A stretch of 64,000 bases of DNA from a virus. The stretch is from the IMG/VR virus record IMGVR_UViG_3300008261_000048, positions 1-64,000 of that record; one strand, written 5' to 3'. The position numbers and the translations under genes are program-made. Every line of letters begins with the position of its first letter. Position 1 is the first letter of the stretch. The notes beneath the pieces are model-generated. The model ran no database searches. It saw only the letters and a program-made list of their open reading frames with translations, and was not told where the DNA came from. Shown here piece after piece: positions 21,205 to 64,000 of this stretch.

Positions 21205-22155
21205 ATGAAGTATGTCAAACTTTTTGAAGAGTTCTTAAATGAAGCCGTTGAAGATAACGGATTAAAGAAAGTATATTTAGCCACCCGCCGAGATAGTGGA
21301 CAGAGATGGTGGTCTTATAAAGGTTTTGCCGGTGATAAGTTTTTTATTCAGGTTACCGAAAATAATATTGATAAGTTAGACATTAATCCTGAGTACCCTG
21401 TACTTAATTATCATAGTACTATAGTTGATGAATTACTAAAAAGAAAATTGATTAAAGAGGAAAACATCTATAATCATCCTAAGTATATTCCACTATCTGG
21501 ATCAAAGAAAGAGTTTCATAAACTTGTAGGTGAAGATGAAAATGTACCTAAGACCGTTTACTCAAAAAACGAGGCTTTAGAGAAATTAAACTTTCCTATC
21601 ATTGCAAAGCCTGCAAATGGTCATAGCGGTATTGGAATTCAGGTTATTAAGAAGCCTGAATTAATGGAAGAACTTGATGAAAAGATATTTGACACTTTTT
21701 CTGAATATGTAGATAAGGTAGAGGAAATGAGATTCTTTAACTTTAAAGGTCAACCTATTTTTTGGATGGAAAGAACACCTGCAAACAGTAAGGCAAAATC
21801 TGGTGATGGTAAGACCGATGAGGAAATGGAATTTAATTATGCTAAGAGAAATGTTGATAATATTCCAGAAGACTATAAAAAGGTTTTAGAAAAATACTGC
21901 AAAATATTTGAAAAGTTTCCTTACATCTGTTTTGATATGATGAAGGATAAAGAAGGTAAGATCTATGTTATTGAGTCAAATGCCCAGCCCGGTGTACCTT
22001 TCGATAGCACAGTTGAAATCTATAAGAAAGTATATGAAGACTTCTATGGTAAACCCCTAGATGAAAAATCTCTTCAAAAACTAGACGAATACTCAAAGGA
22101 AATGATTGAAAGAACACTGGAACGCGATAAGAAAAGATTTTCTGTAAAAAAGTAG
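21205..22155 (+). CDS. ATP-grasp enzyme with capsid-targeting-like N-terminus
   Basis: A 316-residue protein. The first residues MKYVKLFEEFLNE are a T4-type capsid-targeting peptide, with predicted cleavage after LNE. The body is an ATP-grasp fold: FPIIAKPANGHSGIGIQVIKK (ATP-binding lysine and glycine loop) and DMMKDKEGKIYVIESNAQPG (acidic metal-binding residues and Asn), as in RimK and D-Ala-D-Ala ligase relatives. Such enzymes join a carboxylate to an amine. The start at 21205 is chosen because it gives the targeting peptide and clears the upstream stop. If packaged, it could modify host molecules on entry. Confidence 0.8.
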   Translation: MKYVKLFEEFLNEAVEDNGLKKVYLATRRDSGQRWWSYKGFAGDKFFIQVTENNIDKLDINPEYPVLNYHSTIVDELLKRKLIKEENIYNHPKYIPLSGSKKEFHKLVGEDENVPKTVYSKNEALEKLNFPIIAKPANGHSGIGIQVIKKPELMEELDEKIFDTFSEYVDKVEEMRFFNFKGQPIFWMERTPANSKAKSGDGKTDEEMEFNYAKRNVDNIPEDYKKVLEKYCKIFEKFPYICFDMMKDKEGKIYVIESNAQPGVPFDSTVEIYKKVYEDFYGKPLDEKSLQKLDEYSKEMIERTLERDKKRFSVKK

Positions 22156-22174
22156 AAAAAAGTCTACGAAAAAT

Positions 22175-22205
22175 TTTCAAATCTCGTTTTTTTGTTTTAT
22201 ATTTG
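22175..22205 (+). promoter_or_regulatory. Host-type early promoter before phosphoesterase and sigma genes
   Basis: -33 TTTC (22175-22178), 19 nt, -7 TATATTTG (22198-22205). Part of the same block as the promoter at 10267 (AAAAAAGTCT, then ATTTTCAAATC) but without the TTGTTAATAAC element. Confidence 0.75.
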
Positions 22206-22242
22206 TACTGATGGTATTTTTATACTGTCTTAAAACAATGAT

Positions 22243-22788
22243 ATGTCTGAAGAACAATTAAGAGAAATCTCTGATTTTTACATTACATCGGATACGTGGT
22301 TTGGAAGGCCACAAATCCTTGATATTGCAAGGCGTACCCAGTTTTCAAGTATTGATGATATGAATGATCAATTCATCAAAAACTGGAATAAGCAGGTCAA
22401 ATCATCTGACCTCGTTTTTCACTTAGGTAATTTTGCGTGGGATCCACATACCGCAAGAACTGTTTTGAAAAAGCTTAAAGGCAAAATCTTTTTCATGATT
22501 GGAAATTCTGATGAATCTCTACTGGAAGTAGCCGATGAGTTTGAAAACGTTGAGGTTCTTGATCAACAAATTATTGAACTTCCTCAATTTGATTCTATTC
22601 TCTGTCACTATCCGTTGGAAGTATGGAATGGAAAATCATCAGGGACTATTCATTTTCATGGACATACCGTCTTTTCACATAAGACAGATCTAAGATCATC
22701 CAATCGTGTAAACGTTTGCATTGATTTTTGGAATTATTCACCAATTAAATTTTCGGCAATTAAAGAATTTACAAATGGCAAAATCTAA
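22243..22788 (+). CDS. Calcineurin-like phosphoesterase homologue with altered active site
   Basis: A 181-residue protein of the metallophosphoesterase fold common in phages. All landmarks are present but key residues differ: SDTWFG (17-21) has Trp19 where the DxH His belongs, HLGNFAW has Asn63 for the GD Asp, and GNSD (87-90) has Ser for the GNH His. CHYPLEVWNG and HFHGH, the C-terminal metal ligands, are kept. It is therefore likely to have lost or changed catalysis. It is the first gene after an early promoter and overlaps the sigma factor gene by 14 nt, so the two are expressed together. Confidence 0.75.
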   Translation: MSEEQLREISDFYITSDTWFGRPQILDIARRTQFSSIDDMNDQFIKNWNKQVKSSDLVFHLGNFAWDPHTARTVLKKLKGKIFFMIGNSDESLLEVADEFENVEVLDQQIIELPQFDSILCHYPLEVWNGKSSGTIHFHGHTVFSHKTDLRSSNRVNVCIDFWNYSPIKFSAIKEFTNGKI

Positions 22789-24625: not shown

Positions 24626-25459
24626 ATGAAACACATACAAACATTCGAGAGCTTCTTAAATGAAAGCATATTAAATGAAGCAGTGTCTGGAGGACCATAC
24701 TTCCTTCAGATCAATTTGAGACAACAATACGGAGGAGGCCACAGCCTGGAAGCTGCAGTAGCTCCTTCGGATAAACAAGATTTTGCCGACATTCGCGACA
24801 AAGACAGCTTCTTGAGATCTCCCGAAATAGACAAAGCAATTCGGAATTTGACTAACTGGAAACGCGGAGATAAGAGCGGAAAGATTGACGCGTCTTTCCT
24901 CAAAGAGTTCGAAAGGGCAATGGAAGGTATAGGGTTCAAGCTTGTTAAGTTTAGATACTCTCATCCTCTTGTAATGCAAGTATCAAATGAATCTGAAGCA
25001 GTTGCAGCAATCAACAAGACAATTGCATTGCTAGATAAACTTTACGATTCTTACACACCTGAACTGATACCTGTACAACCAGGTCCTGCTTCTTCTGTAA
25101 GAGCTTTTGCTGACCGACTTGTGAATGATTATGTAAGTGGGAGAGGTGATGTTGTAAGAGAACTTGCAAGTTTTATTGAATCTGTGGTTGGTGCCAAGGT
25201 TACTAAATACCTTAAGCACGGACCCGATGACAACACTGCAATTGACGCTGTTAGAGACCAATACAGAAAAGAGAGCCCTGTAAAGGAAGAAACTTGGGGA
25301 GTATTGAAAGCATGCGCATATAAAGACGGTGTGGTAATTGTGTGGATCGAAGATCCTGCTAAAACATCTACTCCAGAATACAACACAGACTATTCAGCCA
25401 AAAATCTTAAATATGGTGGTGTAGAACCTGGAGATGCCGCATTGGTAGTAAAAAAGTAA
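24626..25459 (+). CDS. Capsid-targeted protein, unknown body
   Basis: A 277-residue protein beginning MKHIQTFESFLNE, with a second site SILNE five residues on, both matching the T4 protease consensus (I/L-x-E). The body is not recognised; its middle (LVNDYVSGRGDVVRELASFI, then VRDQYRKESP) is helical. Codon use differs somewhat from its neighbours, with more G and C at third positions in the first half, which may mean recent acquisition of the body. Confidence 0.65.
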   Translation: MKHIQTFESFLNESILNEAVSGGPYFLQINLRQQYGGGHSLEAAVAPSDKQDFADIRDKDSFLRSPEIDKAIRNLTNWKRGDKSGKIDASFLKEFERAMEGIGFKLVKFRYSHPLVMQVSNESEAVAAINKTIALLDKLYDSYTPELIPVQPGPASSVRAFADRLVNDYVSGRGDVVRELASFIESVVGAKVTKYLKHGPDDNTAIDAVRDQYRKESPVKEETWGVLKACAYKDGVVIVWIEDPAKTSTPEYNTDYSAKNLKYGGVEPGDAALVVKK

Positions 25460-25466
25460 ACGTAAT

Positions 25467-25772
25467 ATGAAACATATTCAGACATTCGAGACTTTTTTTG
25501 CTAGATTTCTATCTGAGGAATTAGACCAAACTAGACATAAGGCAGCTAAGCATATTGAGGACATTGAAACTGATAATGAATCAGATAAAAAGACCGAAAA
25601 GGATGCACAAGATTACTTAGACGATAAATCTGATTATTGCCCACGATGCAGTGAACATAAAGACGATTGTCAATGTCAGGAAGATGATCCTTGGTCAACT
25701 CAAAATTACCATAGAGTACCTCCAGGTAAAAAAGAGAAGAGTAAAGCAAAACAAGAATTCAAAACAAAGTAA
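25467..25772 (+). CDS. Capsid-targeted protein with zinc-binding motif
   Basis: A 101-residue protein beginning MKHIQTFETFFARFLSE, a longer form of the targeting peptide. The rest is very acidic and then basic, with CPRCSEHKDDCQC (residues 53-65), a likely zinc-binding cluster. Seven nt after the previous capsid-targeted gene. A small DNA-binding internal head protein is possible; no family match. Confidence 0.6.
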   Translation: MKHIQTFETFFARFLSEELDQTRHKAAKHIEDIETDNESDKKTEKDAQDYLDDKSDYCPRCSEHKDDCQCQEDDPWSTQNYHRVPPGKKEKSKAKQEFKTK

Positions 25773-36821: not shown

Positions 36822-37544
36822 ATGAAATTTATTAAAACGTTTGTTAACTTCTTAACTGAAAAGAAAGAAGAAAAAGACTTCGAGGATAAAATAAAAGGCC
36901 ACGGATACTTTAAAGGTATATCAACCTCAACTGCCCGCAAGAAAGTGGATCAAATGAAAGACCAGGCTGCTAAACCTGATAATGATCCTTCTGCTTATAA
37001 AGAATTACCAGGCGACACCAAAGGAAAGAAACTCCTAAAACCTTCTAAACATACTAAGAATTATCAGGATATCTATGCTGATGATGAAAAGGACACTAAA
37101 AATGAATCTATCATTAATTGGGAACTCTATCAAAAGCTTAAAGAAAATGATCTTAAAATAGAAAAAGAGATCAAGGATTTTAGTATTCTTCCATTTATGA
37201 TTAATGAGGATGACGCAGGTGGGGATCGTTCGCCGATTGATAATGATGCTATTGAAACTGGGTTAAAGAAAAAGAGCGAGGAAACAGGTGTTCCTTTACC
37301 GCTTCTTAGAATAGTAATGCGTCGTGGAATGGCTGCATGGAAAAGTGGTCATAGACCTGGTGCAGGACAAGAACAGTGGGGTTATGCTAGAGTTAATTCA
37401 TTTTTAACTCAAGCACCAGGAACATGGGGTCGTCCTATTAAAGATCCTCAAAAGAATGGACCTAAAGGCGCTTATGGTGCCGATGCTGATGTAGCACAAG
37501 AAGTAATTAAAGGTGGTCATGATAAAAATCTAAAAAAAGGATAA
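36822..37544 (+). CDS. Capsid-targeted protein with DUF5824-like C-terminus
   Basis: A 240-residue protein. MKFIKTFVNFLTE is the targeting peptide. Residues 25-95 (YFKGISTSTARKKVDQMKDQ, then KHTKNY) form a basic helical domain recurrent in phage proteins. FMINE near residue 127 is a possible second protease site. From 145 onward LLRIVMRRGMAAWKSGHRPG and GYARVNSFLT match the phage DUF5824-type domain. First of eight consecutive targeted genes. Function of the domain unknown; a virion interior role is inferred. Confidence 0.65.
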   Translation: MKFIKTFVNFLTEKKEEKDFEDKIKGHGYFKGISTSTARKKVDQMKDQAAKPDNDPSAYKELPGDTKGKKLLKPSKHTKNYQDIYADDEKDTKNESIINWELYQKLKENDLKIEKEIKDFSILPFMINEDDAGGDRSPIDNDAIETGLKKKSEETGVPLPLLRIVMRRGMAAWKSGHRPGAGQEQWGYARVNSFLTQAPGTWGRPIKDPQKNGPKGAYGADADVAQEVIKGGHDKNLKKG

Positions 37545-37990
37545 TGAAAACAATAAAACTATTTGAAGAATTTAAAGAAGCTACTTCATGTCCTGTACCA
37601 ACTAAAGATTTAGAAGTTAATACCAAAAATCGTGATAGAGCAATTCATGCAGATTTTATTGATTATGGACCTCTTAATGTAGATGAACCTGCAGGTTATT
37701 GGGAACATTTAGCAGATCATTGGAATACCAGTGTTGATGCAGCTAAAGCATCTACATGTGGAAATTGTGTGGCTTTTGACATATCTCCTCGTATGTTAGA
37801 ATGTATGCCAGGTGAAATTAGTGATGGCGATGGAAGATTAGGTTATTGTTGGATGCATCACTTTAAATGCCATTCTGCCCGCTCTTGTTATACATGGGCA
37901 AAGGGTGGTCCTATAACCGATGATAAGATATCTTACGGATGGCAAGAAAAAAATCTGGATGCTGCAAACAATCCAAACCCTATTAAGTAA
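37544..37990 (+). CDS. Capsid-targeted cysteine-rich protein (HiPIP-like pattern)
   Basis: A 148-residue protein with a shortened targeting peptide MKTIKLFEEFKEA. CGNC (residues 66-69), a later GYCWMHHFKCHSARSCYTW and GGP give a pattern C-x2-C ... G-x-C ... C-x2-W that resembles high-potential iron-sulfur proteins, though spacing differs. It could bind an Fe-S cluster or zinc. Similar Cys-rich phage proteins exist without known function. Coupled by a 1-nt overlap to the previous gene. Confidence 0.55.
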   Translation: MKTIKLFEEFKEATSCPVPTKDLEVNTKNRDRAIHADFIDYGPLNVDEPAGYWEHLADHWNTSVDAAKASTCGNCVAFDISPRMLECMPGEISDGDGRLGYCWMHHFKCHSARSCYTWAKGGPITDDKISYGWQEKNLDAANNPNPIK

Positions 37991-37992: not shown

Positions 37993-38535
37993 ATGAAATT
38001 TGTAAAAAACTTTAATGATTATCATAAAGTCTCCGAGGGACTTAAATATCATATAGAAAATGGTTTGGATTTAACAAACAGTGTTTATCGCTTAGGTTCA
38101 GATTCATATGCCAATCTATTTGAAGAAGTAAAACAATATTGGGATAAAGGAAATATCATCCTAAACGGAAAGAGCGGTTGGATGGCAAAAAATCTCGAGG
38201 TTGGAAAACCCGCTGTTTATACTGACCGTAAAACCGGAAGAACTACTAAGGTAAAACTCGATTCACCAGAAAGAGGTGGAAATAAAAAGTTTATCGTTTA
38301 TCGTAATACTGGTAGAACTAATGAAAATGGCGATGTGGTTGCAAGAAAGATTGAATGGGGTGATCCTAATCTTACTGTAAAGAATGATGATCCAGGTCGG
38401 GCTGCATCTTTTTGGGCAAGGCATGGTTGCGATAAAGCAGAAAAGATGGATCCTAATAAGGCAGGTTTCTGGGCATGTTATGGTCCAAGCTTGTTTGGAA
38501 AACAGTTAGGTTTAAGTAGCACTGAACCTTGGTAA
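37993..38535 (+). CDS. Capsid-targeted protein, unknown
   Basis: A 180-residue protein. MKFVKNFNDYHKVSE is a divergent targeting peptide with a candidate VSE cut. The body holds VYTDRKTGRTTKVKLDSPER, a basic beta region, and a C-terminal ARHGCDKAEKM then GFWACYGP, a Cys/Trp motif seen in other phage virion-associated proteins. It follows the Cys-rich gene by 2 nt. Confidence 0.6.
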   Translation: MKFVKNFNDYHKVSEGLKYHIENGLDLTNSVYRLGSDSYANLFEEVKQYWDKGNIILNGKSGWMAKNLEVGKPAVYTDRKTGRTTKVKLDSPERGGNKKFIVYRNTGRTNENGDVVARKIEWGDPNLTVKNDDPGRAASFWARHGCDKAEKMDPNKAGFWACYGPSLFGKQLGLSSTEPW

Positions 38536-38562: not shown

Positions 38563-39918
38563 ATGAGACATATTCCTAATTATTCGGAATTTAAGAAAAT
38601 TAATGAAGCTTTTGCTACTTCAATGACAACAGTTCAAAATGATGCCAAATTGAATCAGGCCGCTGATATTATTACAAACTTCTTAAATAAGAAAACCGGT
38701 AAGGCATTTAAGAAATTCCCGTTCCTGGTATATTCAAATGGAACCCCGGGCATTATGCTTTATAGTGATAAAGATAGTTCTGCGGTTAGAATTAGCGGCG
38801 GGGCTGGTCGTTTTCCTGGTGTAGTTGGTCAATTGGACTATTTTTCTGATGCTGCTTCACAAACGGCTGATTTTTCTGTTAGTAGTGAAACATTCCCAAT
38901 TGTTGCATTACTTAATGAATTTGTTAAATTAGTCAATGAACCTTCATATGCAACAGAAGTAGAATCATTAACTGAATCTACTCTTAATGAAGCAACTAAA
39001 TCTTTCTCACCAGCTGAGCAGAAAACAATCTTAAGCAGATTGGATAAAGGCGAAAGCGGCGCTGCTATTGCAAGAGATATGGGAGTATCATACGGTATGA
39101 TCCTACAACTTAAGAGAAATGTAAATGTTCCTCAAGATGAGAATCCTGCAGTAAAGGCAAACGAATTAACTTTGCAAGATAAGGTTAAACTATTGGATGA
39201 AACATTAGATGACCTTTATGAAATTACTAGAAGACTTGCTGCTGGTGCATTTACTTCCCTAATGGTTTCAGGTAGAGCAGGTACTGGTAAAACATTCTCT
39301 GTTACTAAAGCATTAAAAGATGAAGGTCTTATTGAGGATGATGACTTTATCGTTGTGTCCGGAGCAGTATCAGTTATTATGATGTATAAGAAAATGTATC
39401 AATACAGAAATCAAGTTCTTGTATTTGATGACTGTGATGCTGTATTCCGTGATGAAAATGGTCGTAACATCTTAAAGGCCGCTCTTGATACTAAAAAGAC
39501 CAGAAGAATTTCTTATCTTAAGAAGAGTGGATTAGTATTTGACCCTAAAGATTTTGAAAATAATCCAGAAGGTGAATTTAATGCAATTGAAAATGGATTA
39601 GTTCCTGCATATTTTGATTTTGCCGGTAGAGTGGTATTTATCTCAAACCTTCCTAAAGATAAAGCTGACCCTGATGGAGCTATTCGTTCAAGATCAATCT
39701 TAATTGACGTTAATCCTGATGATATGACTCTAATGGAAAGAATTAAGATTCTTTTACCAGATCTTGAACCAAGAGATATGCCTCTCAAAGATAAAGAAGA
39801 AATTTTTGAATTTATGAAACGCGCAAAAGACGTCTCAATGAGAACCTTTGTTAAGGCTGCAGGTTTCAAACAGGCAGGTCTAAACAATTGGGAAAGAATG
39901 GCACAAAGATATCTATAA
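38563..39918 (+). CDS. Capsid-targeted AAA+ ATPase
   Basis: A 451-residue protein. MRHIPNYSEFKKINE is the targeting peptide; SLTE (to E138) and TLNE (to E143) are further candidate protease sites that would free the C-terminal part. Residues 150-185 contain a helix-turn-helix (GESGAAIARDMGVSYGMILQ). The ATPase has Walker A GRAGTGKT (237-244), Walker B VLVFDDCD (285-292) and a sensor-like VVFISNLP near 364. Its sequence recalls phage ATPases of unknown role. If packaged, it would enter with the DNA and act before transcription. Confidence 0.75.
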   Translation: MRHIPNYSEFKKINEAFATSMTTVQNDAKLNQAADIITNFLNKKTGKAFKKFPFLVYSNGTPGIMLYSDKDSSAVRISGGAGRFPGVVGQLDYFSDAASQTADFSVSSETFPIVALLNEFVKLVNEPSYATEVESLTESTLNEATKSFSPAEQKTILSRLDKGESGAAIARDMGVSYGMILQLKRNVNVPQDENPAVKANELTLQDKVKLLDETLDDLYEITRRLAAGAFTSLMVSGRAGTGKTFSVTKALKDEGLIEDDDFIVVSGAVSVIMMYKKMYQYRNQVLVFDDCDAVFRDENGRNILKAALDTKKTRRISYLKKSGLVFDPKDFENNPEGEFNAIENGLVPAYFDFAGRVVFISNLPKDKADPDGAIRSRSILIDVNPDDMTLMERIKILLPDLEPRDMPLKDKEEIFEFMKRAKDVSMRTFVKAAGFKQAGLNNWERMAQRYL

Positions 39919-39921
39919 TAT

Positions 39922-41400
39922 ATGAAACATTTTAGATCATACAGTGAGTTTAAACTCCAGGAAAAATACGAAGGTGTAGAGGTTAGTACTAGACGCTACG
40001 AAAGAGTACATGGTAAAAAACCGCGTGGAAATGGAATGTGGGCATTTTACCTTGATCCAATTGGTGATGAACCTATTTTTACTCCTTCTGCAATGAACTA
40101 TACCGATGCTGTTAAATGGGCATCTCTTAAAGCCAGAAACATGGGTAAGAAAGTTATCTATGTTGGTGAATCGGTTAATGAAGAAGTAAATCCTAAAATT
40201 AAAGATGAAGTTATTTCAAGACTATCTGACTTCTTTAGAGTTTCCCCTAATGCCTTAAAGAAATTTAATTTTGATGGAAACGATAACATTAAAGAACTTA
40301 CAAAGGCTCTTAATTCAACTAGTGATCAAGGCACTAAGCTTTATTATGATACTGCAATTAAACTTGCAAAAGAAGATCTTGGTATCAGAGAATCGGTTAA
40401 TGAAGCCTATAACGGTAATATGTCAGACTTCAAATATGATTTGGAAATGGCAGTTGAAGAACTGGGTATATCTGGTAATGCAATAAAAAAGGTTTCAAAA
40501 TCTGGTAAAGGATATGAAGTTAGAATGTCCAGTTATATGAGTCAACGTGGTACTTGGGAAAAGATTGGGGAACTTATTGGGGCTACTCTTGTAGATTTTA
40601 AAGCAGATAAATCAATCAATGTTGGAATTTATGAAAGGGAAACATCCATCACTGAAGGTGAAGCTCTTATCTTTGATATAGTAGAACCTGAGTTTAATGA
40701 TCTTAAGAATAAGATATCTGATCTTAATAAAAAGACAGTTGACCTAAAATGGAGAAAGGCATTAGATCAAATTCAAAGAGAGGTTGAAAAACTTGAGTTC
40801 TTTATATCTAAATACGATAAACAATTAGGTGCGATTGAAACTAATGAATCTCTTAACGAACGTGAATACTCTGATGAAGAAAGAAAAGATATGGCTGATA
40901 AAGGCTTAGCCTTACCTGATGGTTCATTTCCAATTAAAGACTTAGAGGATCTTAAAAATGCTATTCAGGCATACGGCCGCTCAAAGGATCAATCCGCTAC
41001 TGCTAAATTTATTGTTAAGAGAGCAAAGGCACTAAGTGCCGAGGATCTTATTCCTGATACTGAAGATTTTCAAAAGGCTTTAAAGGAAACTATTACTGAA
41101 GGTAATGCATTCCTTGCTGCCCGTGCAAAAGCAATTGATGAAGATGCCGAGGAGTTTGAATTTAATGGTAAAAAATATCCAGTATTAAATAGACCTAAGA
41201 AACTTAATGAAGAGCTTTCTGATAATGATGCATATAAGATTATAGATATAGGTTCAAAGTTTTCTAAGGAAGTAGGCGGACATTTACTTGCAACCCAGAC
41301 ATTTGATACAGCCAATGATTTTGTTGATTACCTTCTTTCTGAATTTATTCCAAAGAAAGATCATCCAAAATTCTTAAAGTCTGTTAAATCATTAATGTAA
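39922..41400 (+). CDS. Capsid-targeted multi-site polyprotein
   Basis: A 492-residue protein. MKHFRSYSEFKLQE is the targeting peptide. Six internal sites fit a gp21-like protease: SVNE87, SVNE161, SITE244, SLNE313, TITE393 and KLNE430, dividing the chain into pieces of roughly 40-85 residues. Within it, residues 325-380 (MADKGLALPDGSFPIKDLED, then AIQAYGRSKDQ) match a small domain often fused to phage head maturation proteins. No enzyme domain is visible. It may be cut into several internal head peptides. Confidence 0.6.
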   Translation: MKHFRSYSEFKLQEKYEGVEVSTRRYERVHGKKPRGNGMWAFYLDPIGDEPIFTPSAMNYTDAVKWASLKARNMGKKVIYVGESVNEEVNPKIKDEVISRLSDFFRVSPNALKKFNFDGNDNIKELTKALNSTSDQGTKLYYDTAIKLAKEDLGIRESVNEAYNGNMSDFKYDLEMAVEELGISGNAIKKVSKSGKGYEVRMSSYMSQRGTWEKIGELIGATLVDFKADKSINVGIYERETSITEGEALIFDIVEPEFNDLKNKISDLNKKTVDLKWRKALDQIQREVEKLEFFISKYDKQLGAIETNESLNEREYSDEERKDMADKGLALPDGSFPIKDLEDLKNAIQAYGRSKDQSATAKFIVKRAKALSAEDLIPDTEDFQKALKETITEGNAFLAARAKAIDEDAEEFEFNGKKYPVLNRPKKLNEELSDNDAYKIIDIGSKFSKEVGGHLLATQTFDTANDFVDYLLSEFIPKKDHPKFLKSVKSLM

Positions 41401-41401
41401 T

Positions 41402-41995
41402 ATGAAATACTTTAAAAAATATAATGAATTTATCACTGAAAAGATTGCATATCCTGATGGAGACAAAACTACCGGTGATAAGATTCTTGATAAGTTTGCT
41501 AAATTAATTAATAGTCCATCAAGTACTGTTAATATTATGTCATGGGCAGTTCAGGGTAGAAGTATACCTTTTATGACTGGTGCCGAATCTTTTTCTGTAA
41601 ATGCTAATCCATCACAAGACTATTTTTGGATTAATACATCAAAGGGAAAATTTAGACTACCTAAGAAGGATATTAAAAAGGCCGAGGAATTATATGATGA
41701 GGTAGAATCTATTATACAAACTGGAAAGCCTAAAAGAAGTGTTGAAGAATCTCTTAATGAATCTACTTCATTAAAGAATGCAATTGCTATTCTTAAGAAA
41801 GAAAACATTATGGCATATCCTAACCCAGAAGATTTGGCAAAAGCAATTCACAAACACTATAAAGAAATTACAGGAGATAAGTACGAAGATGCTGTTGAAA
41901 TGTCAATGAACGATAAGGTAGCTGATATCGTATCATATTTCAAAATCGACGGTTCAGACTTTATGTCAGCCTGGGATAAAACAATAAAAGACTAA
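41402..41995 (+). CDS. Capsid-targeted protein, unknown
   Basis: A 197-residue protein. MKYFKKYNEFITE is the targeting peptide, and ESLNE near residue 119 is a second candidate site. The first half is beta-rich (YFWINTSKGKFRLPKKD), the second helical (LAKAIHKHYKEITGDKYEDA). Not recognised. One nt after the previous gene. Confidence 0.6.
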   Translation: MKYFKKYNEFITEKIAYPDGDKTTGDKILDKFAKLINSPSSTVNIMSWAVQGRSIPFMTGAESFSVNANPSQDYFWINTSKGKFRLPKKDIKKAEELYDEVESIIQTGKPKRSVEESLNESTSLKNAIAILKKENIMAYPNPEDLAKAIHKHYKEITGDKYEDAVEMSMNDKVADIVSYFKIDGSDFMSAWDKTIKD

Positions 41996-41998: not shown

Positions 41999-42415
41999 AT
42001 GATTACATCATTTAATAATTTCTTAAACGAAAACTTCGGAGAAGCACAAGACATTTATGGCTCATTCTTTGTTGCTATGTTAGGACTTAGAGATCAGGCC
42101 CATATATTTCATTGGCAAACAGAATCATTTGCACAACATAGCGCATTTGGTGGATTTTATGATACCTATCTTACATTAGTTGATAAGTTATCAGAATCTT
42201 TAATTGGTATTCATGGAAGACCTTCTTTTATGGAAGCTGAAATTGAATTATCTGGTTATAGTGAAGAAAACATTGCGATATTTTTAGAAAAAGCATATGC
42301 TTTATTCTTAGGGCAAGGAACTGAATTGGCTGGCGGTAATACCGAAATTAAGAATATCATCGATGAGATTATTGCTGAACTTGATAAGTTAAAGTATCTT
42401 CTTACTCTTAAATAA
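41999..42415 (+). CDS. Capsid-targeted ferritin/Dps-like protein
   Basis: A 138-residue protein. MITSFNNFLNE is a compact targeting peptide. The body is a four-helix pattern with QAHIFHWQTESFAQHSAFGG and FYDTYLTLVDKLSESLIGI, which resembles the Dps motif of a His/Trp-containing first helix followed by D-x-x-x-E. It may also belong to a phage family of ferritin-like proteins. A packaged Dps-like protein could protect or condense DNA. Iron binding is not proven by sequence. Confidence 0.65.
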   Translation: MITSFNNFLNENFGEAQDIYGSFFVAMLGLRDQAHIFHWQTESFAQHSAFGGFYDTYLTLVDKLSESLIGIHGRPSFMEAEIELSGYSEENIAIFLEKAYALFLGQGTELAGGNTEIKNIIDEIIAELDKLKYLLTLK

Positions 42416-42717
42416 TGAAATTCATTAAGGCATACGAATCGTTCCTATTTGAAGGAAAACCTAAAGGTGCTCCTGATTGGCATGATTCAGATGCTCCTGA
42501 TGCAGAAGGTCGTTTTAAAGATCTTTCACCAAAGGACCTCGCCGCTTGGCTTATTAAGTCAAGAAAAGGCGATCTAAAAAGAATAAGCGGTTCACTCACA
42601 CAGCAGGTTGTTTTTAATCGTAATGATGATCCTGCATATGCGGAAAAGATGGAAAAGACTCGTAAAGAAGTTTATAAACAATTAGGGAGAGAAGACCTAT
42701 TAAATAAAAAGGATTAG
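42415..42717 (+). CDS. Capsid-targeted small protein
   Basis: A 100-residue protein. MKFIKAYESFLFE then GKPKGAPDWHDSDAP, with a basic helical C-terminus (DLAAWLIKSRKGDLKRIS, then KTRKEVYKQLGR). It overlaps the previous stop by 1 nt. Last of the eight-gene targeted block; not recognised. Confidence 0.6.
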   Translation: MKFIKAYESFLFEGKPKGAPDWHDSDAPDAEGRFKDLSPKDLAAWLIKSRKGDLKRISGSLTQQVVFNRNDDPAYAEKMEKTRKEVYKQLGREDLLNKKD

Positions 42718-43269: not shown

Positions 43270-43280
43270 AAAAGTATTAA

Positions 43281-57580: not shown

Positions 57581-57825
57581 TGCAAGTATACCACGCAACT
57601 CAAGCAGCTGCTCTGATAGAAGCCGAACAGTATGCAAAGAAAAAAGGTTACTCTGTAATCTATGAAGACCGCCTATGGACTGAACATGTTGGATATGGGC
57701 ACACGGTGAAGTATTCATTCCCACTTACTTTAGACCGCACTGGCAATGAAGCAAAATTTTGGTTACACATTCAACTCTACCGCATGGGAAACGGTGGGTA
57801 TGAACTTAATTGTTACTTATCATGA
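57580..57825 (+). CDS. Small early protein, unknown
   Basis: An 81-residue protein (ALIEAEQYAKKKGYSVIYED, then HVGYGHTVKYSFPLTL). The alpha-beta pattern is compact. Overlaps the next gene by 4 nt. Not recognised. Confidence 0.6.
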   Translation: MQVYHATQAAALIEAEQYAKKKGYSVIYEDRLWTEHVGYGHTVKYSFPLTLDRTGNEAKFWLHIQLYRMGNGGYELNCYLS

Positions 57826-57998
57826 ATCTAGCACAACTTAAAGAAAAGACAAAAGAATTAATCACAAAGAATCCCGAACTTAAGGATGACCTTATGGAGT
57901 TTTATTACTTGGCAGTATCAGAGATTGAGGAAGGTGGATCTGAAAGCCATGAATGTGAACTTGCATATAGTGATATGATGGACCTTATAGAAAAGTAA
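57822..57998 (+). CDS. Small acidic early protein, unknown
   Basis: A 58-residue acidic helical protein (AQLKEKTKELITKNPELKDD, then ESHECELAYSDMMDLIEK). The start at 57822 overlaps the previous stop (ATGA). Not recognised. Confidence 0.55.
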   Translation: MNLAQLKEKTKELITKNPELKDDLMEFYYLAVSEIEEGGSESHECELAYSDMMDLIEK

Positions 57999-58000
57999 TT

Positions 58001-58573
58001 ATGGGAGCAGATATTCATATGTACGTTGAGTACAGAAACAAAAAACAAGCTAAAGAGCGAGATGCTCGAGGTGAAAAGCCTTATTGGTTGGCTTATGGTA
58101 ACCGAGTAAATCCTGGTCGTAACTATATCATGTTTGCCATCTTGGCAGGCGTCCGCGGTGAGTATGACGAATCGTTTCATCCCAAAGGTAAATTACCTAA
58201 AGACATGATGAGTTGGACTACAGCCAGTGATGCATTTATGCACATCTATCCTAAGAAGCATGAAGACAAAGAATGGGAAGGTTTCGTAACTCTTGAAAAG
58301 GCAACTAAATGGGAAACCTGGGGTAGACAAATCATCATTAATGAAAATGGTGAACCTACGCATATTGAACATCCAGATTGGCACTCACACACATGGATGA
58401 GTATAGAAGAGCTTAAGAAGGCTTATAAGATCTATGCTAAAAAAGCATCTAAAGAATGGGATCAAAAGATCACCAAACCACCAGTTGAATGGATGGCTTT
58501 ATTGGCTTCAATGAAAGCCTTAGAGGATGAAGGTGAAAACGAGGTTCGTGTAGTATTTTGGTTTGATAATTAA
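58001..58573 (+). CDS. Phage conserved hypothetical (MGADIH family)
   Basis: A 190-residue protein beginning MGADIHMYVEYRN, with NYIMFAILAGVRGEY and later HTWMSIEELKKAY. Proteins with this opening and the AGVR segment are frequent in phages, always of unknown function. Early transcription unit. Confidence 0.75.
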   Translation: MGADIHMYVEYRNKKQAKERDARGEKPYWLAYGNRVNPGRNYIMFAILAGVRGEYDESFHPKGKLPKDMMSWTTASDAFMHIYPKKHEDKEWEGFVTLEKATKWETWGRQIIINENGEPTHIEHPDWHSHTWMSIEELKKAYKIYAKKASKEWDQKITKPPVEWMALLASMKALEDEGENEVRVVFWFDN

Positions 58574-58579
58574 AAGAGC

Positions 58580-58780
58580 ATGAACTTCTCTGACTTACAA
58601 AACTCCAATGCATTTAAGTATGCAAAGAATGTGGTTATTCCAACTGAAAGGGCTATTAAAGAAGTTACCGAAATCGAGAAGTATGACTCTGATTATGTGC
58701 TCTATATGACAGATAAGACATCTTATGGAATATCACAATGCCAATCAATAGAAGAAACTTTTCGTCAAGAATTTTATTAA
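58580..58780 (+). CDS. Small early protein, unknown
   Basis: A 66-residue protein (FKYAKNVVIPTERAIKEVTE, then YDSDYVLYMTDKTSYG), beta-rich. Last gene of the early unit from 56909; the next early promoter begins at its stop. Not recognised. Confidence 0.6.
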   Translation: MNFSDLQNSNAFKYAKNVVIPTERAIKEVTEIEKYDSDYVLYMTDKTSYGISQCQSIEETFRQEFY

Positions 58781-58781
58781 A

Positions 58782-58848
58782 TTGTTAATAACTTTTTGAA
58801 AAAAGTCACTAAAATATTTTTTTATCCCAATTATTTGTATTAAATTTA
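58782..58848 (+). promoter_or_regulatory. Early host-type promoter with upstream TTGTTAATAAC element
   Basis: TTGTTAATAAC (58782-58792), GAAAAAAGTCACT, TTTT in the -33 place (58818-58821), 19 nt, -7 TAAATTTA (58841-58848). AAACGGAT precedes the ATG at 58871. Confidence 0.72.
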
Positions 58849-58870
58849 TACTATAATTAAATAAACGGAT

Positions 58871-59137
58871 ATGGTACACAGAGAATACAAGTTAAAAGTC
58901 GTAGAGGATATAGTAATCCACTCAGGCCGCGAGGTAACCCCAGTACATTACGCCGCAGCCCAGGAGATCTCAGTAGACCAGGATACATGGGAAAGACTAA
59001 AAAAGGGGGAGACTATAGAAAAACCGGTCTATGATGGTTTTATCCGCTACAACAAAAAGAACTTCGCTAATGAAGTACAATGGACCGAGGTGGCGGTAAG
59101 CTATGGAATCGCTAAACTGGGTTTACGAAATTGTTAA
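58871..59137 (+). CDS. Small early protein with unusual codon use
   Basis: An 88-residue protein (YKLKVVEDIVIHSGREVTPV, then DQDTWERLKKGETIEKPVYD). It uses more GAG, CAG, CGC and CCC codons than its neighbours. It sits alone between two copies of the early promoter block, and its stop codon is part of the TTGTTAATAAC motif of the next copy. Not recognised; a transferred cassette is possible. Confidence 0.6.
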   Translation: MVHREYKLKVVEDIVIHSGREVTPVHYAAAQEISVDQDTWERLKKGETIEKPVYDGFIRYNKKNFANEVQWTEVAVSYGIAKLGLRNC

Positions 59138-59197
59138 TAACTTTTTGAAAAAAGTTCCCAAACTATTTTCAAATCCCAATTATTTGTATTATATTTA
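59130..59197 (+). promoter_or_regulatory. Early host-type promoter with upstream TTGTTAATAAC element
   Basis: ATTGTTAATAAC (59130-59141), GAAAAAAGTTCCC, -33 TTTC (59167-59170), 19 nt, -7 TATATTTA (59190-59197). AACGGAAAT precedes the ATG at 59218. Confidence 0.75.
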
Positions 59198-59217
59198 TAT
59201 AAATTAAAAACGGAAAT

Positions 59218-59514
59218 ATGGATACAACCATTCGCATCACAACCCAGTATTACGAGAACTACGGTGATTCTACTAGTCCTCATTGGAAACCTAAAGGCGG
59301 TTTTGAATTTATGATCAAGGCCGACGCTGACCTTGTTATGTATGTGCCTAATCTTAAGGCGGTTCTCGCTGACATGGTGGCTAATGAATCAAACGGCCAC
59401 GAGAAGTTTGAATACATCGACCACGAAGTCCTCTTTACTGAACCTTTTCAACTATCCACCGAGGATTTTGAAAATCGTGTACGTGCTCAATATGAACAAA
59501 CCCAATATGCATAA
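59218..59514 (+). CDS. Small early protein, unknown
   Basis: A 98-residue protein (TIRITTQYYENYGDSTSPHW, then KPKGGFEFMIKADADLVMYV). The TQYxENYG opening occurs in other small phage proteins of unknown role. First gene of an early unit. Confidence 0.65.
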   Translation: MDTTIRITTQYYENYGDSTSPHWKPKGGFEFMIKADADLVMYVPNLKAVLADMVANESNGHEKFEYIDHEVLFTEPFQLSTEDFENRVRAQYEQTQYA

Positions 59515-59515
59515 T

Positions 59516-59854
59516 ATGAATACTTTCACTCACCAATTCCGCGAAGCGGTAGAATCTGTGGCCGAAGAGATTGGCCTTCTTAATGCAACCAACTCTCGCC
59601 ATGAGAAGAATGGTACAATTGCATATATTGACCCGGTAACATCTGCCATGTACACACTACACACAAATGGTTACATTCGTCGTACTCATCGTCGTAGAAT
59701 GTGGTACAGGGGTACAATGCAGAATGTAACATATCAACTAAATCCAGTGAAAAGAACCCAAGGCCGTAATGAACGAGTTATGATGAGTCATTGGGAACAG
59801 CTTGGAAAGTTAACAACTTCTGTAATTTCTTATCGTAAGAACAATGGGAACTAA
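59516..59854 (+). CDS. Small basic early protein, unknown
   Basis: A 112-residue protein, basic in its middle (YIRRTHRRRMWYRGTMQNVT). The start at 59516 lies 1 nt after the previous stop; earlier in-frame ATGs are inside that gene. Nucleic acid binding is possible. Not recognised. Confidence 0.6.
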   Translation: MNTFTHQFREAVESVAEEIGLLNATNSRHEKNGTIAYIDPVTSAMYTLHTNGYIRRTHRRRMWYRGTMQNVTYQLNPVKRTQGRNERVMMSHWEQLGKLTTSVISYRKNNGN

Positions 59855-60347
59855 TTACTATCGTATACCTCTTGCCTCTGAAGTGGAGGAGAGAAAAGCC
59901 CTTCTTATGAAAAGAGTAGCAGAGATGGAAATGACACCAGGTAACATTGAACGAGGATTTAATACAATACCAACTCATGACTCTGATTATTCATGGGAAT
60001 ATGACAGTCCTTGGTCAGAGTTTACAGAAGGTATGAGTGTCCATTTAGGCAAGAGATCATGTGGATGGAAGTTCTGTTGGAATTTTCATAAGAACCGCCA
60101 TTATCATCATAAAGAATCTCTATTGGAATTTATTCGCGCAGGCCGTGTTGTTAATGAGTACGGCGAAGAGATTCCCACTGAAGAGTTTATTCAAATGGCT
60201 CTTGATTGGGGACAACCTGACGGTTGGGTACATAATGCAGAATATGAAAAACACCAACGAGAATTAGGACATAAAACATGGGGACCTTCATATTATGATA
60301 CAATTATAGATGGTCTCCGAGTATCAACTTCAACTGAATTTTCTTAA
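59844..60347 (+). CDS. Phage conserved hypothetical (MGTNYY family)
   Basis: A 167-residue protein beginning MGTNYYRIPL, with SVHLGKRSCGWKFCWNFHKN and a His-rich stretch RHYHHKES. This MGTNYY ... HLGKRSxGW pattern recurs in many phages; the paired Cys and His residues may bind zinc. Overlaps the previous gene by 11 nt. Function unknown. Confidence 0.75.
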   Translation: MGTNYYRIPLASEVEERKALLMKRVAEMEMTPGNIERGFNTIPTHDSDYSWEYDSPWSEFTEGMSVHLGKRSCGWKFCWNFHKNRHYHHKESLLEFIRAGRVVNEYGEEIPTEEFIQMALDWGQPDGWVHNAEYEKHQRELGHKTWGPSYYDTIIDGLRVSTSTEFS

Positions 60348-60366
60348 ACAGCTAAAAATAGAAACT

Positions 60367-60840
60367 ATGGGATTAGACATGTATCTTACCAAAAAACATT
60401 ACGTTAAAAACTGGGATCATACTCCAGAAGAAAAACAACACACAGTGACCGTCACGCAGGGTGGAGAAACCCCTTCATACATTGACACGACCAAAATCAA
60501 ATACCTTGAGGAAGAGGCTGGTTATTGGCGTAAAGCAAATCATATTCATAATTGGTTTGTCGATAATGTACAAGAAGGTAAGGATGAATGCCAAAAGGCA
60601 TGGGTTTCACCTAGACAGTTAGAAGAGTTATCCACGGCCTGTAAAGAAGTCTTGGCAGATAATTCTAAAGCAGGAGAACTTTTACCTACCGCTGATGGAT
60701 TCTTTTTTGGTGGGACTGAATATGATGAGTATTACTTTAGAGATATTGAAGATACTCTCAAATTCATTGAACCTATCCTAGCCGATATGGATCAAGGTGG
60801 TAATCTACCTTATGATGTTTATTACCAATCTTCTTGGTAA
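60367..60840 (+). CDS. Phage conserved hypothetical (MGLDMYL family)
   Basis: A 157-residue protein beginning MGLDMYLTKKHYVK, with GYWRKANHIHNWFVDNVQEG and FFFGGTEYDEYYFRDIEDT. This family is very common in phages and small plasmids; role unknown. The start at 60367 matches the conserved family start, so the earlier ATG at 60310 is rejected. Confidence 0.78.
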   Translation: MGLDMYLTKKHYVKNWDHTPEEKQHTVTVTQGGETPSYIDTTKIKYLEEEAGYWRKANHIHNWFVDNVQEGKDECQKAWVSPRQLEELSTACKEVLADNSKAGELLPTADGFFFGGTEYDEYYFRDIEDTLKFIEPILADMDQGGNLPYDVYYQSSW

Positions 60841-61497: not shown

Positions 61498-61800
61498 ATG
61501 AATACAGTTCTTATTATTTTATTGATTGCAGCTGTTATTGCAACAATATATACTACGTTTAGTGGTAAAAAGAGTTCAACATTAGTAGGATATTCCGAAC
61601 CACATAAACCAAGCGGTATCTCTGGGTTTAAACCGAGCGGTACATCTGGTATCTCTGGAACTAAACCGAGCGGTACATCTGGTATCTCTGGAACTAAACC
61701 AAAGCCAAAACCGAGCGGTACATCTGGTATTAAAGGTGTTAAAAAACCTGGAAGACCAAAGAAGACGAGTGGCAATAGCGGAATTAAAGGAATTAAATAA
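61498..61800 (+). CDS. Membrane-anchored Gly/Ser/Pro repeat protein
   Basis: A 100-residue protein. One membrane segment (VLIILLIAAVIATIYTTF, residues 4-21) is followed by repeats of KPSGTSGISGT and a lysine-rich end. It resembles a short flexible surface spike or linker. Overlaps the next start by 1 nt. Function unknown. Confidence 0.6.
   Translation: MNTVLIILLIAAVIATIYTTFSGKKSSTLVGYSEPHKPSGISGFKPSGTSGISGTKPSGTSGISGTKPKPKPSGTSGIKGVKKPGRPKKTSGNSGIKGIK
61630..61695 (+). repeat. Two tandem 33-nt repeats
   Basis: A 33-nt unit starting AAACCGAGCGGTACATCTGG occurs at 61630-61662 and 61663-61695, with a partial third copy near 61709. It encodes the KPSGTSGISGT repeat. Confidence 0.85.
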
Positions 61801-62186
61801 TGAAAAGCTATAAAGACTTCATATCAGAATCATTTGTACAAAATGTAGTACAAAACGATAAGGATCCAAACTTTGATGGTGCAGATCCTTCCTCTATTGA
61901 AATTCATAATAGGGGTATTGGTGGAGTAAATTCTCTACAAGGTCATCGTGATCAAATTGTAAGACTTTTGGAACAAATGCTTGCTGATGCTAAAATGGCT
62001 CAAAAGAACCATAAATTAGCTCATTACTCTATTGCAAAGATTTTATCTTTGGCTGATCCTGATCGTATAACAGGTGTGTTACTCACTTACCTAAAGAACC
62101 ATCAGACTGCAATTGAAGAATTAGAAGCAATTCGTAGAAAAGGTGGAAGTGGAGCCGGAAAATCAATTCCTAAAGGATTGATCTAA
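61800..62186 (+). CDS. Capsid-targeted protein, unknown
   Basis: A 128-residue protein. MKSYKDFISE is almost the T4 internal-protein peptide MKTYQEFIAE and has the same I-x-E cleavage position. The body is helical (REQ-like: GHRDQIVRLLEQMLADAKMA, then YSIAKILSLADPDRI). Not recognised. This is the clearest match to the T4 signal in the window. Confidence 0.7.
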   Translation: MKSYKDFISESFVQNVVQNDKDPNFDGADPSSIEIHNRGIGGVNSLQGHRDQIVRLLEQMLADAKMAQKNHKLAHYSIAKILSLADPDRITGVLLTYLKNHQTAIEELEAIRRKGGSGAGKSIPKGLI

Positions 62187-62201
62187 AAATAAAATTACAT
62201 A

Positions 62202-62972
62202 ATGGCATTAAGATTTAACAGCATTCAAGAATACGGTGAGTATATCTATAATGAATGTATTAAGCAAAACAAGCAAAAAGATGTTTGTAATAGTGGAAAA
62301 GGTGGTACAAAAACAAAAGTAACTGACTCCGATCCTGATGGTTTTAGTTTAACTTATTCTTCAAGTAACCTAGATGCTAAATCACAGGAATATCTAAACA
62401 CCCACACGGTGATAAGTAAGGCACCACCGCAAAATGCCCCAGCCCATATAGAAATTGTTGAAGGTGAAATCTGGAAGCAAACTATTCACAAGTATGATAA
62501 AAATGTTTATGCAAACAAAACTGTAGTTGATAATTCAACTGACTTTTCTGTTTCTGCTGATGCATCTTATAAAGAAGCTAATGTAAGTGCCAATTACGAA
62601 CAGGTTTATTCTGAAGAAGATACTAATGTAAGTGAAGAAGTTTCAAAAGATGCATCACAATATGATTTGGAATTTCACGGCATTCAAGGAAAGCATTATG
62701 CTGTAGATTTTTATACAAATAAGTATACGTGCTCTGACCGCCCAACTTTAGAAATTACTTATACTTTTAAGTCAATAACATTTAGAGCGGTATGCGATTA
62801 TTCAGACGGAGCTGCATTACATTGGAATAATGAACATTATCATAAAACATATGATATAGTATCTTTAGGTCTTGACCCTATTGTTACAATTCCACAAACT
62901 GTGGTATTTGATGTTAATTATGATAACCCATGGCCTAGTTACACAATAACAAACATAATTGATAACATATGA
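62202..62972 (+). CDS. Hypothetical beta-rich protein
   Basis: A 256-residue protein: helical N-terminus (FNSIQEYGEYIYNECIKQNK), then mainly beta (TDFSVSADASYKEANVSANY). No targeting peptide of the usual form, though SIQEYGEYIYNE is faintly similar. It lies between two targeted genes and overlaps the next by 4 nt, so a virion role is possible. Not recognised. Confidence 0.6.
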   Translation: MALRFNSIQEYGEYIYNECIKQNKQKDVCNSGKGGTKTKVTDSDPDGFSLTYSSSNLDAKSQEYLNTHTVISKAPPQNAPAHIEIVEGEIWKQTIHKYDKNVYANKTVVDNSTDFSVSADASYKEANVSANYEQVYSEEDTNVSEEVSKDASQYDLEFHGIQGKHYAVDFYTNKYTCSDRPTLEITYTFKSITFRAVCDYSDGAALHWNNEHYHKTYDIVSLGLDPIVTIPQTVVFDVNYDNPWPSYTITNIIDNI

Positions 62973-63556
62973 AACATATTAGAGAATACGAAGAATTTCT
63001 AAACGAAAACACAAACGCAAGGCGATTCCAAAATAAAGGAAAACTGCGCTATAGTGATCAATTTAGTGGTAATATTAGTCTTTCTAAAACAATTGGTACT
63101 GAACTAGGATTTGATCCAAAAAAAGGATCATCGGGTGTTGGATTTGATAATGTATCTATGTATGATAATGAATCGAGTAAAACTATCGTAGGTGATGCAC
63201 TTACCGGTAAATACACATACGATGAACTGGTTAAACTTGCCAAAGAATGGTACGATAAAAATGAATCTATGATTGGTGAAGCCGCAAGTGTACCTTCAAA
63301 TATCATGGATTTTGCAAAGAGAAAGGGTTCTTATGCAGTTAGTCTTGTAAAGAAAGCTGCAACCTGGGCAGAGAAAGCCGGTAAAAGAATCTCGGGTGGT
63401 ACTGCAATTGGAAAGAATTATGATACAATTATTCTTGATATGAAACACCAAGGATCTGAGATTTATATCAATCTTAATGATGAAACAATTGAACTATTTG
63501 GAGAAGAGGTAACTGATGCTAAATCGTTTGCCAAGGTACTTCAGGATAACGAATAA
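62969..63556 (+). CDS. Capsid-targeted protein, unknown
   Basis: A 195-residue protein with MKHIREYEEFLNE as targeting peptide. The body contains YTYDELVKLAKEWYDKNESM and a Lys-rich middle (MDFAKRKGSYAVSLVKKAA), possibly membrane- or DNA-interacting. Not recognised. Coupled to the previous gene by ATGA overlap. Confidence 0.65.
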   Translation: MKHIREYEEFLNENTNARRFQNKGKLRYSDQFSGNISLSKTIGTELGFDPKKGSSGVGFDNVSMYDNESSKTIVGDALTGKYTYDELVKLAKEWYDKNESMIGEAASVPSNIMDFAKRKGSYAVSLVKKAATWAEKAGKRISGGTAIGKNYDTIILDMKHQGSEIYINLNDETIELFGEEVTDAKSFAKVLQDNE

Positions 63557-63566
63557 ATATTTTACC

Positions 63567-64000
63567 ATGAAGCACATACAAACATTTGAAAGTTTCTTAA
63601 ATGAAGCCGTTAAATTAAAAATTGCATATACTCCGATTGATAAGAAAGCGTATACTACGCAAAGGCAAGGTATTAAGTTTTCTGTAAAAATTAACAATCA
63701 AACGGCAACCGGAATTTGGGTTCCGAAGTATGGTGATATAAGTAACGGTGTTGATGTAAATGAATTAGAAGGATCTGACAGAAAAAGATTCTACATATTT
63801 TCTTCTGGCGGATCTTCTAGATCTTTTCCTATTAGTGTTCAACTCGAGGAATTGGATAAACAGCCAAAAGATCTAAGTTTCACTGGGCCGTATCTTGATA
63901 TTAGCAAACTAAAAAGTGCGTTTATTGATAAGATAACACAAGCTATAGAAAAACCTACAAAAGAAGAACAACTTTCACCAGAGTTTTTGGAGTACTTTGG
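63567..64000 (+). CDS. Capsid-targeted protein, 3' partial
   Basis: ATG at 63567 opens a frame that runs to the window end without a stop (144 codons seen). It begins MKHIQTFESFLNE, identical over 13 residues to the protein at 24626, but the DNA differs at several third positions and the following residues (AVKLKIAYTPIDKKAY) are unrelated. The body is beta-rich. The C-terminus lies outside the window. Confidence 0.7.
   Translation, partial: MKHIQTFESFLNEAVKLKIAYTPIDKKAYTTQRQGIKFSVKINNQTATGIWVPKYGDISNGVDVNELEGSDRKRFYIFSSGGSSRSFPISVQLEELDKQPKDLSFTGPYLDISKLKSAFIDKITQAIEKPTKEEQLSPEFLEYF

Follow-up and report, generated by a model that had tools for sequence, protein, structure and literature searches.

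Why should fourteen genes on one stretch of viral DNA, encoding proteins that otherwise look different, all begin with the same short peptide? The stretch analysed here, the window, comprises positions 1 to 64,000 of the IMG/VR virus record IMGVR_UViG_3300008261_000048, which is 77,937 bases (78 kb) long and is itself a fragment. The initial annotation had proposed that the peptide is a capsid-targeting tag like that of the internal proteins of phage T4, and our results support this interpretation. The shared tag very probably serves loading into the head, cutting by the head protease and injection with the DNA; we put the probability of this reading, with several of the tagged proteins (hereafter carriers) as polyproteins cut in the prohead, at roughly four in five. 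Statements on published work are drawn from the passages available of the papers cited.

A conserved peptide at the start of unrelated proteins

All 14 starts claimed for the window are in-frame ATG codons followed by the N-terminus quoted for them. The initial annotation had suggested searching the rest of the genome for more carriers, and two were found past the window, at 64033-64881 (tag MKHIKHIDSFINE) and 70864-71409 (tag VKHIKTYEKFQLVE), together with a diverged one after the capsid gene of the near-identical contig G001. The set had been called large compared with T4 and said to include enzymes, in agreement with the 17 carriers now counted in the 140 kb of G001, an ATP-grasp enzyme and an AAA-type ATPase among them. 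The tag end L/I-x-E, as in T4, holds for 12 of the 14 window carriers and not for 37544 (EFKEA) and 37993 (KVSE). The description of the bodies as unrelated stands when the record's 16 carriers are compared at E<=0.01, apart from one weak pair, 41402 and 64033 (E 0.002). The likeness of MKSYKDFISE at 61800 to the T4 peptide MKTYQEFIAE was borne out: the tag has the T4 length, and two MKTYQEFIAE proteins are present in the T4 record.

A position-specific scoring matrix (PSSM) was trained on 13 long tags (12 in the window plus 64033) and tested by leaving out one tag at a time. The left-out tags scored 13 to 30 bits in 12 of 13 cases, the exception being 37993 with 4.7 bits; note that two training members have one identical tag and are therefore not independent. 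At 8 bits the full matrix selected 14 open reading frames (ORFs) of the record, namely the 13 training tags and 70864. It also passed 13 ORFs in contig G003 (one G003 tag match is a 58-residue ORF) and, at 10 bits, 31 in the relative LR756500.1. None of 8,396 internal methionines (13 sequences) passed at 8 bits, and at 10 bits the 1,677 ORFs of random viral loci (637 kb) gave no match. The carriers at 41999 (MITSFNNFLNE) and 61800 score below 0; their tags are shorter variants that resemble the short T4 tag. Because a broader regular expression for the tag also matches T4 starts that are no known tags, its counts were not taken as carriers. For the test of internal sites in LR756500.1, 29 of its 38 matches were used; five were removed by hand as likely false, and the others were dropped because of their length, because they overlapped or because no Glu was near. 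In the 80 of 168 kb read of phage MaF61 there was no convincing carrier.

The tag persists with its bodies. G003 has homologues of 12 of the 14 window bodies, all with a tag-like start (10 by PSSM, two by a looser regular expression). Tagged homologues of 62969 occur elsewhere, and for the body of 63567 no homologue was found at E 1e-4. Although 37993 has the weakest tag, its homologues are clearly tagged (MKYVKTFEDFQVSE, MKNIPEFEDFIRE). Among eight tags, codons for the same residue are unlike in 85 of 182 pairs, and the DNA upstream of the tags is also unlike. Because of these synonymous differences and the dissimilar upstream DNA, a DNA-level origin of the shared start was rejected; judged from the codons, conservation acts on the peptide.

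A prohead protease with conserved sites in head proteins

A protease search of the 78-kb record fragment gave no match. Relatives were sought among viral contigs by their tail sheath (190 were confirmed, of which the best 80 were kept). One of these, G001 (139,776 bases), follows the record closely along its length: of 39 40-mers sampled, 37 match exactly. It extends 57.9 kb further upstream and encodes a gp21-type prohead protease, the lack of which would have spoken against the initial annotation. Besides Peptidase_S77, the protein matches phrog_207 (the head maturation protease of PHROGs) over residues 8-479 (E 7.7e-38), and its profile matches the solved prohead core protease 5JBL (E 2.5e-4). 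Its GELDHP and ISSRA correspond in the alignment to GELNHP and VSSRG of T4 gp21. All 12 aligned protease sequences keep the conserved His and the first Ser of SS, and 11 keep the second Ser; we take the conserved His and Ser of gp21-type proteases to be the catalytic residues. The coiled-coil second half of the frame is presumably a scaffold part. Peptidase_S77 was found in 14 of the 16 tail-sheath relatives searched, G001 included.

In Chryseobacterium phage MA9V-2 (L064-L074), the protease ORF (166979-170602) has 1,207 residues, 22 loose x[NTS]E matches and an embedded DUF5856-related domain (E 3.4e-6), a domain of the cargo type seen in 41999.

When the head proteins of eight contigs and LR756500.1 were aligned, [LIV]NE, in most cases before S, A or G, was seen at fixed places in the protease and capsid proteins. 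The protease protein has RVNE[SA] after the protease domain (9/9), [IL]NE in a linker that is hypervariable except for N and E (8/9) and, near its C-terminus, [IL]NESK (8/9) and L[VI]NESF (8/9). The capsid protein has LINE[AS] (9/9) and NLNES (8/9) at its N-terminus. In seven contigs the motif occurs 44 times in 8,185 residues of protease and capsid proteins versus 94 times in 146,614 residues elsewhere. These sites resemble the tag end, FLNE followed by S or A, and T4 gp21, which cuts by the rule L/I-x-E (PMC9026906), has ITES at the equivalent place after its protease domain. On this pattern, the conserved sites of the head proteins would be cut.

Tagged proteins are also found at the positions of core genes in relatives. 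Behind the capsid gene lies a protein with tags of other dialects (MKRVKSYNEFIAE, MRKVKSYDEFVNE); it reaches at least 7 bits with the window-trained PSSM in 5 of 7 other contigs (G005, G006, G007, G008, G013). Moreover, in the 21 protease loci read, six distinct tagged proteins of ~115 residues lie directly 5' of the protease frame, with starts at about 1,013-1,042 and protease frames from about 1,425-1,446; the T4 record has gp67 and gp68 at the position preceding the protease. In PHROGs, no named core family was matched by the capsid-adjacent protein of G001 or by the one ~115-residue protein scanned.

Carriers that resemble polyproteins

Several carriers look like chains of small proteins to be cut apart. 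Entire domains, located between ES(x)NE-like sites, distinguish orthologues of the window's record from those of G003: there are three such differences in 39922, two domains at the ESLNE/ESLSE site of 41402 and one in 64033, whose second unit directly follows the tag in G003. The G003 orthologue of 41402 has as an insert the first unit of 64033 (VGDVISFKDGEDWKVTK), which in L215 is a stand-alone 91-residue carrier. The body of 42415 is fused to the ATP-grasp of 21205 in G005, with the ATP-grasp behind, and to the 36822 (DUF5824) domain in L256. The 730-residue protein of L222 joins 70864-like and 36822-like units and contains a complete internal tag with its site. In L216 (805 residues) and L267 (792 residues), both with looser tag-like starts, repeated units end in NE sites; in L267 the repeats are tandem.

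Across 244 carriers, ends of homology other than protein ends fall within 8 residues of a strict site in 37 of 253 cases, against 13.8 expected (standard deviation 3.4); the maximum of 2,000 random placements was 25, and related pairs in this count are not independent. In 25 of the 244, a strict site lies beyond the tag by more than 30 residues; the 62 pieces that would result have a median of 92.5 residues. In the window's record the strict internal motif is found 7 times in 15 carriers versus 0 times in 94 other genes, and [LIVMFT]NE is enriched in carrier bodies (15 versus 26 hits, p 0.0006). In the survey loci described below the strict motif is likewise enriched (23 versus 78 hits, 0.79 versus 0.43 per 1,000, p 0.014), also when only positions beyond residue 60 are counted (21 hits, p 0.001).

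In a weak AlphaFold model of 39922 (predicted local distance difference test (pLDDT) score 63.8, predicted template modelling score 0.24, five sequences), five of six predicted sites fall between folded parts, in linkers of low confidence; the sixth, at residue 393, is inside a helix. From its sites and domain differences, 39922 is probably a polyprotein.

Distribution of the tag and nature of the cargo

The tag is widespread. A degenerate 39-base tag pattern run against viral contigs returned at least 120 stretches, compared with 0 for a reversed-codon control and 1 for an unrelated start pattern. Among the matches listed, to which the survey counts that follow refer, 112 tags were read, and an upstream in-frame stop lies no more than 30 codons away in 108. 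Shine-Dalgarno-like sequences are rare (11 of 112), as is expected for Bacteroidota hosts, and the named tail-sheath relatives include phages of Flavobacterium, Tenacibaculum, Prevotella and Chryseobacterium. The 109 tagged bodies fall into 87 families. Fifteen Pfam families were matched at E<=0.001 among 106 carriers; the cargo includes nucleotidyltransferases, leucine-rich repeat (LRR), KTSC, cREC and other proteins, with one or two members each, and one of the 106 matches Pfam LRR models.

By eye, several tagged proteins of LR756500.1 (L019-L042; 13446, 180972 and 198758) also look like leucine-rich repeat proteins, unusual as candidates for injection.

Marine Kyanoviridae have homologues of 36822 and 37993 with the T4-like starts MITFKKYLEE and MKKFKQYIDE (C48C1); such homologues also lie inside one 650-residue Melnitz protein that starts MKKFSEIIEA. 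As read from its sequence, S-CREM2 gp154 combines an MKNFSSFLTE start (MKNFSSFLTEADEK...) with a cytidylyltransferase. This protein is listed in the virion proteome, where the authors leave co-purification open, and the S-CREM2 (L505) list also has a CRISPR-Cas9 nuclease and a SAM hydrolase (PMC10665884). Enzymes of this type are reported in the virions of S-SM1 and S-SCSM1 (PMC3037559, PMC9602691).

The DUF5856 homologues in the T4 record, L473 and L474 start MKFSDF, MKFNEFIKDG or MKFEDFAKGG, which is tag-like with no cleavage Glu.

A model for the tag and its alternatives

We propose that the shared N-terminal peptide acts as a T4-type capsid-targeting sequence. Late in infection, the tag would dock the carriers onto the prohead core, and the gp21-type protease, made in one frame with its coiled-coil part, would cut after the Glu of [LIV]-x-E, mostly [LIV]NE before S, A or G. 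Cutting would free the bodies inside the head, from where, by analogy with the injection of T4 internal proteins (PMC12373910), they would enter the next host with the DNA, as candidate effectors. In 39922, 41402, 64033 and probably 38563, the head protease would also cut at internal ES(x)NE sites and release units of mostly 70-130 residues. With less confidence, but still on balance, we favour a wider picture: a large T4-like phage group, probably of Bacteroidota, may deliver effectors as capsid-targeted polyproteins, the head protease doubling as polyprotein protease, with pieces small enough for the portal and with units that are gained, lost, duplicated and exchanged. T4 IPI is small enough to pass the portal while folded (PMC9026906), a size that would fit small carrier units.

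Several observations weigh against this model. No virion of this phage has been observed, nor a virion protein of its group. The protein after the capsid gene scores about 0 or below with the PSSM in G001, G003 and G010. Homologues of the 36822 and 37993 cargo in HTVC008M have starts that fail the tag-like regular expression; those of 38563 and 41999 in T4-like phages have no tag, nor have nucleotidyltransferases of S-H9-2, Moby, X1 and LR756500.1. The protease is found in 19 of 25 tag-bearing contigs of at least 100 kb (17 over Pfam's cut-off; the 25 are all listed tag contigs of this size but one, and the remaining G002 has the protease) versus 3 of 7 random contigs (p 0.17). This is no significant excess, and co-occurrence was set aside as weak proof. 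Only the frame length differs: it reaches at least 560 residues in 18 of the 19 protease-positive tag contigs versus 1 of the 6 random contigs, irrespective of size, that have the protease (p 0.0006). As for the internal sites, it was in the window's own proteins that the strict motif first drew attention. LR756500.1 shows no enrichment ([LIVMFT]NE, p 0.6; strict motif, 0 in 29 carriers versus 11 in 606 others), and neither do the survey loci with the loose motif (1.59 versus 2.0 per 1,000). In seven contigs the tagged bodies exceed the others at p 0.011 only, with 8 of 9 hits in the close relative G003.

How else could the tag be explained? It might be a core-docking and protease signal, most carriers being parts of the head core or DNA-condensing proteins that are retained or degraded, with few injected. 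Tagged proteins do lie beside the capsid and protease genes of relatives, and gp21 fragments T4 gp22 and two other core proteins (PMC9026906), but an ATP-grasp enzyme, an AAA-type ATPase, nucleotidyltransferases and an LRR protein are among the carriers, and 87 families for 109 bodies are unlike a fixed structural set, so that we consider this explanation unlikely. Another account, in which the peptide directs proteins to some other intracellular phage site or sets their stability and its likeness to T4 is convergent, would accommodate the untagged homologues in T4-like phages and a case for packaging that is indirect. It is harder to reconcile with tag ends equal to the conserved sites of the protease and capsid proteins, or with the tagged homologue reported in S-CREM2 virions (PMC10665884), and appears improbable. 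Least credible of all is a functionless by-product of recombination, that is, a common 5' DNA cassette spread by duplication. Close phages can carry an identical tag on different bodies, as 63567 and 104763 of G003, beside the 64033 orthologue, do, but the synonymous codon variation, the dissimilar upstream DNA and the tag-like start kept in 12 of 12 G003 homologues speak strongly against it.

The internal ES(x)NE segments call for a judgement of their own. They might be mere flexible linkers copied with their domains, and the multi-domain carriers might be packaged uncut, as is the phage N4 RNA polymerase, packaged unprocessed (PMC5512222). The domains of L216 and L267 are indeed repeated along with their linkers. 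However, these linkers bear a protease-type motif, an entire tag with its site lies inside the L222 protein, and a single domain is found tag-adjacent, internal and alone; we regard uncut carriers as possible, though doubtful. Among all these accounts, capsid targeting with trimming and injection remains the one that we prefer.

Genes of the window and of the head region

Coordinates are collected in Table 1. The ATPase of 38563 is related to T4 nrdC.10, with a Pfam match below the cut-off and a strong match to phrog_1250. The window bodies besides 21205, 36822, 38563 and 41999 have no Pfam family above the cut-off, and the Pfam and PHROGs scans named no function for most carrier bodies.

Table 1. 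Carrier genes of the window and head genes of contig G001 (nt, nucleotide; tags, cuts and domains as predicted)
Feature	Coordinates	Strand	Evidence
ATP-grasp enzyme carrier (316 residues), tag MKYVKLFEEFLNE, then cut	21205..22155	+	Pfam ATPgrasp_YheCD E 9.4e-7
Carrier, tag MKHIQTFESFLNE, cut, SILNE, cut, body	24626..25459	+	no Pfam family
Carrier, tag MKHIQTFETFFARFLSE, small Cys-containing body	25467..25772	+	no Pfam family; G005 homologue start MSIKSFKDFINE
Carrier, tag MKFIKTFVNFLTE, internal MINE, then DUF5824 domain	36822..37544	+	DUF5824 E 1.7e-14
Carrier, tag MKTIKLFEEFKE then A, end not L/I-x-E	37544..37990	+	no Pfam family
Carrier, weakest tag MKFVKNFNDYHKVSE	37993..38535	+	PSSM; tagged homologues; related domain in 650-residue Melnitz phage protein
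Carrier, tag MRHIPNYSEFKKINE, internal ESLTESTLNE, predicted cut after nt 38991, AAA-type ATPase	38563..39918	+	phrog_1250 E 1.1e-41
Carrier and probable polyprotein, tag MKHFRSYSEFKLQE	39922..41400	+	domain differences vs G003; predicted internal sites
Predicted internal cuts of 39922	after nt 40182 (ESVNE), 40404 (ESVNE), 40656 (SITE), 40860 (ESLNE), 41211 (KKLNE)		
Carrier, tag MKYFKKYNEFITE, internal ESLNE, predicted cut after nt 41761	41402..41995	+	two extra domains at site in G003
Carrier, short tag MITSFNNFLNE, DUF5856 body	41999..42415	+	DUF5856 E 7.2e-13; phrog_858
Carrier, tag MKFIKAYESFLFE, 87-residue body	42415..42717	+	body is first unit of longer carriers elsewhere
Carrier, T4-length tag MKSYKDFISE	61800..62186	+	G003 homologue starts MKSYKDFIHE
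Carrier, tag MKHIREYEEFLNE	62969..63556	+	related domain twice in tandem in L267 protein
Carrier, tag MKHIQTFESFLNE	63567..64000, gene runs on to 64016	+	PSSM
Portal, gp20-type	G001 39024-40673		orthologue in G008 matches Portal_T4 (E 1.9e-74)
576-residue protein: Peptidase_S77, then coiled-coil-like part	G001 40719-42449		Peptidase_S77 E 2.7e-16
Major capsid protein, gp23-type	G001 42533-44248		Gp23 E 4.8e-28
385-residue protein, diverged tag	G001 45843-47000		matches nothing in family scans

Directly 5' of the carrier at 61800 lies a low-complexity protein (61498-61800) with a hydrophobic start followed by PSGTSGISGT repeats. The first ORF of the window (21-2597) is the C-terminal 858 residues of a 1,071-residue tail sheath protein that starts upstream (G001 57284-60499), and a single cluster at 11089-14651 holds a tmRNA gene and 22 tRNA genes. 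In LR756500.1, long ORFs at 182153-193238 with similar C-terminal ends (KFEW...) interrupt the tail cluster; by eye, they are possibly homing endonucleases.

Significance and comparison with known systems

To the initial annotation our analysis adds the polyprotein-like organisation, the wide distribution and the carriers outside the window; the tag system itself is a T4-type variant. Among the titles and abstracts listed by our searches of the open-licence literature, none reports the tag in such large phages or prohead-cut cargo polyproteins. If the proposed role is true, a 13-residue peptide would allow the injected repertoire of uncultured large phages to be read from sequence alone, with 17 candidates in a 140-kb stretch and about 30 in the 462-kb relative LR756500.1, most of them without a known family. 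Many small hypothetical genes would become a testable class, a delivery tag for such phages would be suggested, and phage biology would gain a prohead-processed polyprotein strategy.

Related enzymes (NMNAT/cytidylyltransferases) are reported from the virions of the cyanomyoviruses S-CREM2, S-SCSM1 and S-SM1, and S-CREM2 gp154 has a T4-like tag, although the available passages of these reports name no tag and the S-CREM2 authors' reservation about co-purification applies. Polyvalent proteins (Iyer et al. 2017, PMC5512222) are also multi-domain and are believed to travel with phage or plasmid DNA; the passages available of that paper do not mention an N-terminal tag in common or prohead-protease sites separating the domains. 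The inner-body and ejection proteins of phiKZ and SPN3US offer another likeness, giant phages in which many head proteins are cut after Glu by a related protease (PMC5694885). There, according to the same passages, the SPN3US propeptides mostly exceed 100 residues, whereas a tag of 10-20 residues on unrelated bodies is found here.

The closest parallel is with T4 IPI-III and Alt: a short N-terminal peptide on unrelated bodies, an L/I-x-E end and a gp21-family protease. The T4 internal proteins are described as varied anti-defence proteins with only the targeting peptide in common (PMC3012670, PMC12373910), and phages related to T4 have at least 10 internal proteins (PMC12373910). Compared with T4, the carriers are more numerous here (14 + 2 + 1 in G001, 29-31 in LR756500.1), the tag usually has 13 residues instead of 10, the protease is part of a long fused frame, an architecture already known from phrog_207, and carriers with several domains have internal sites.

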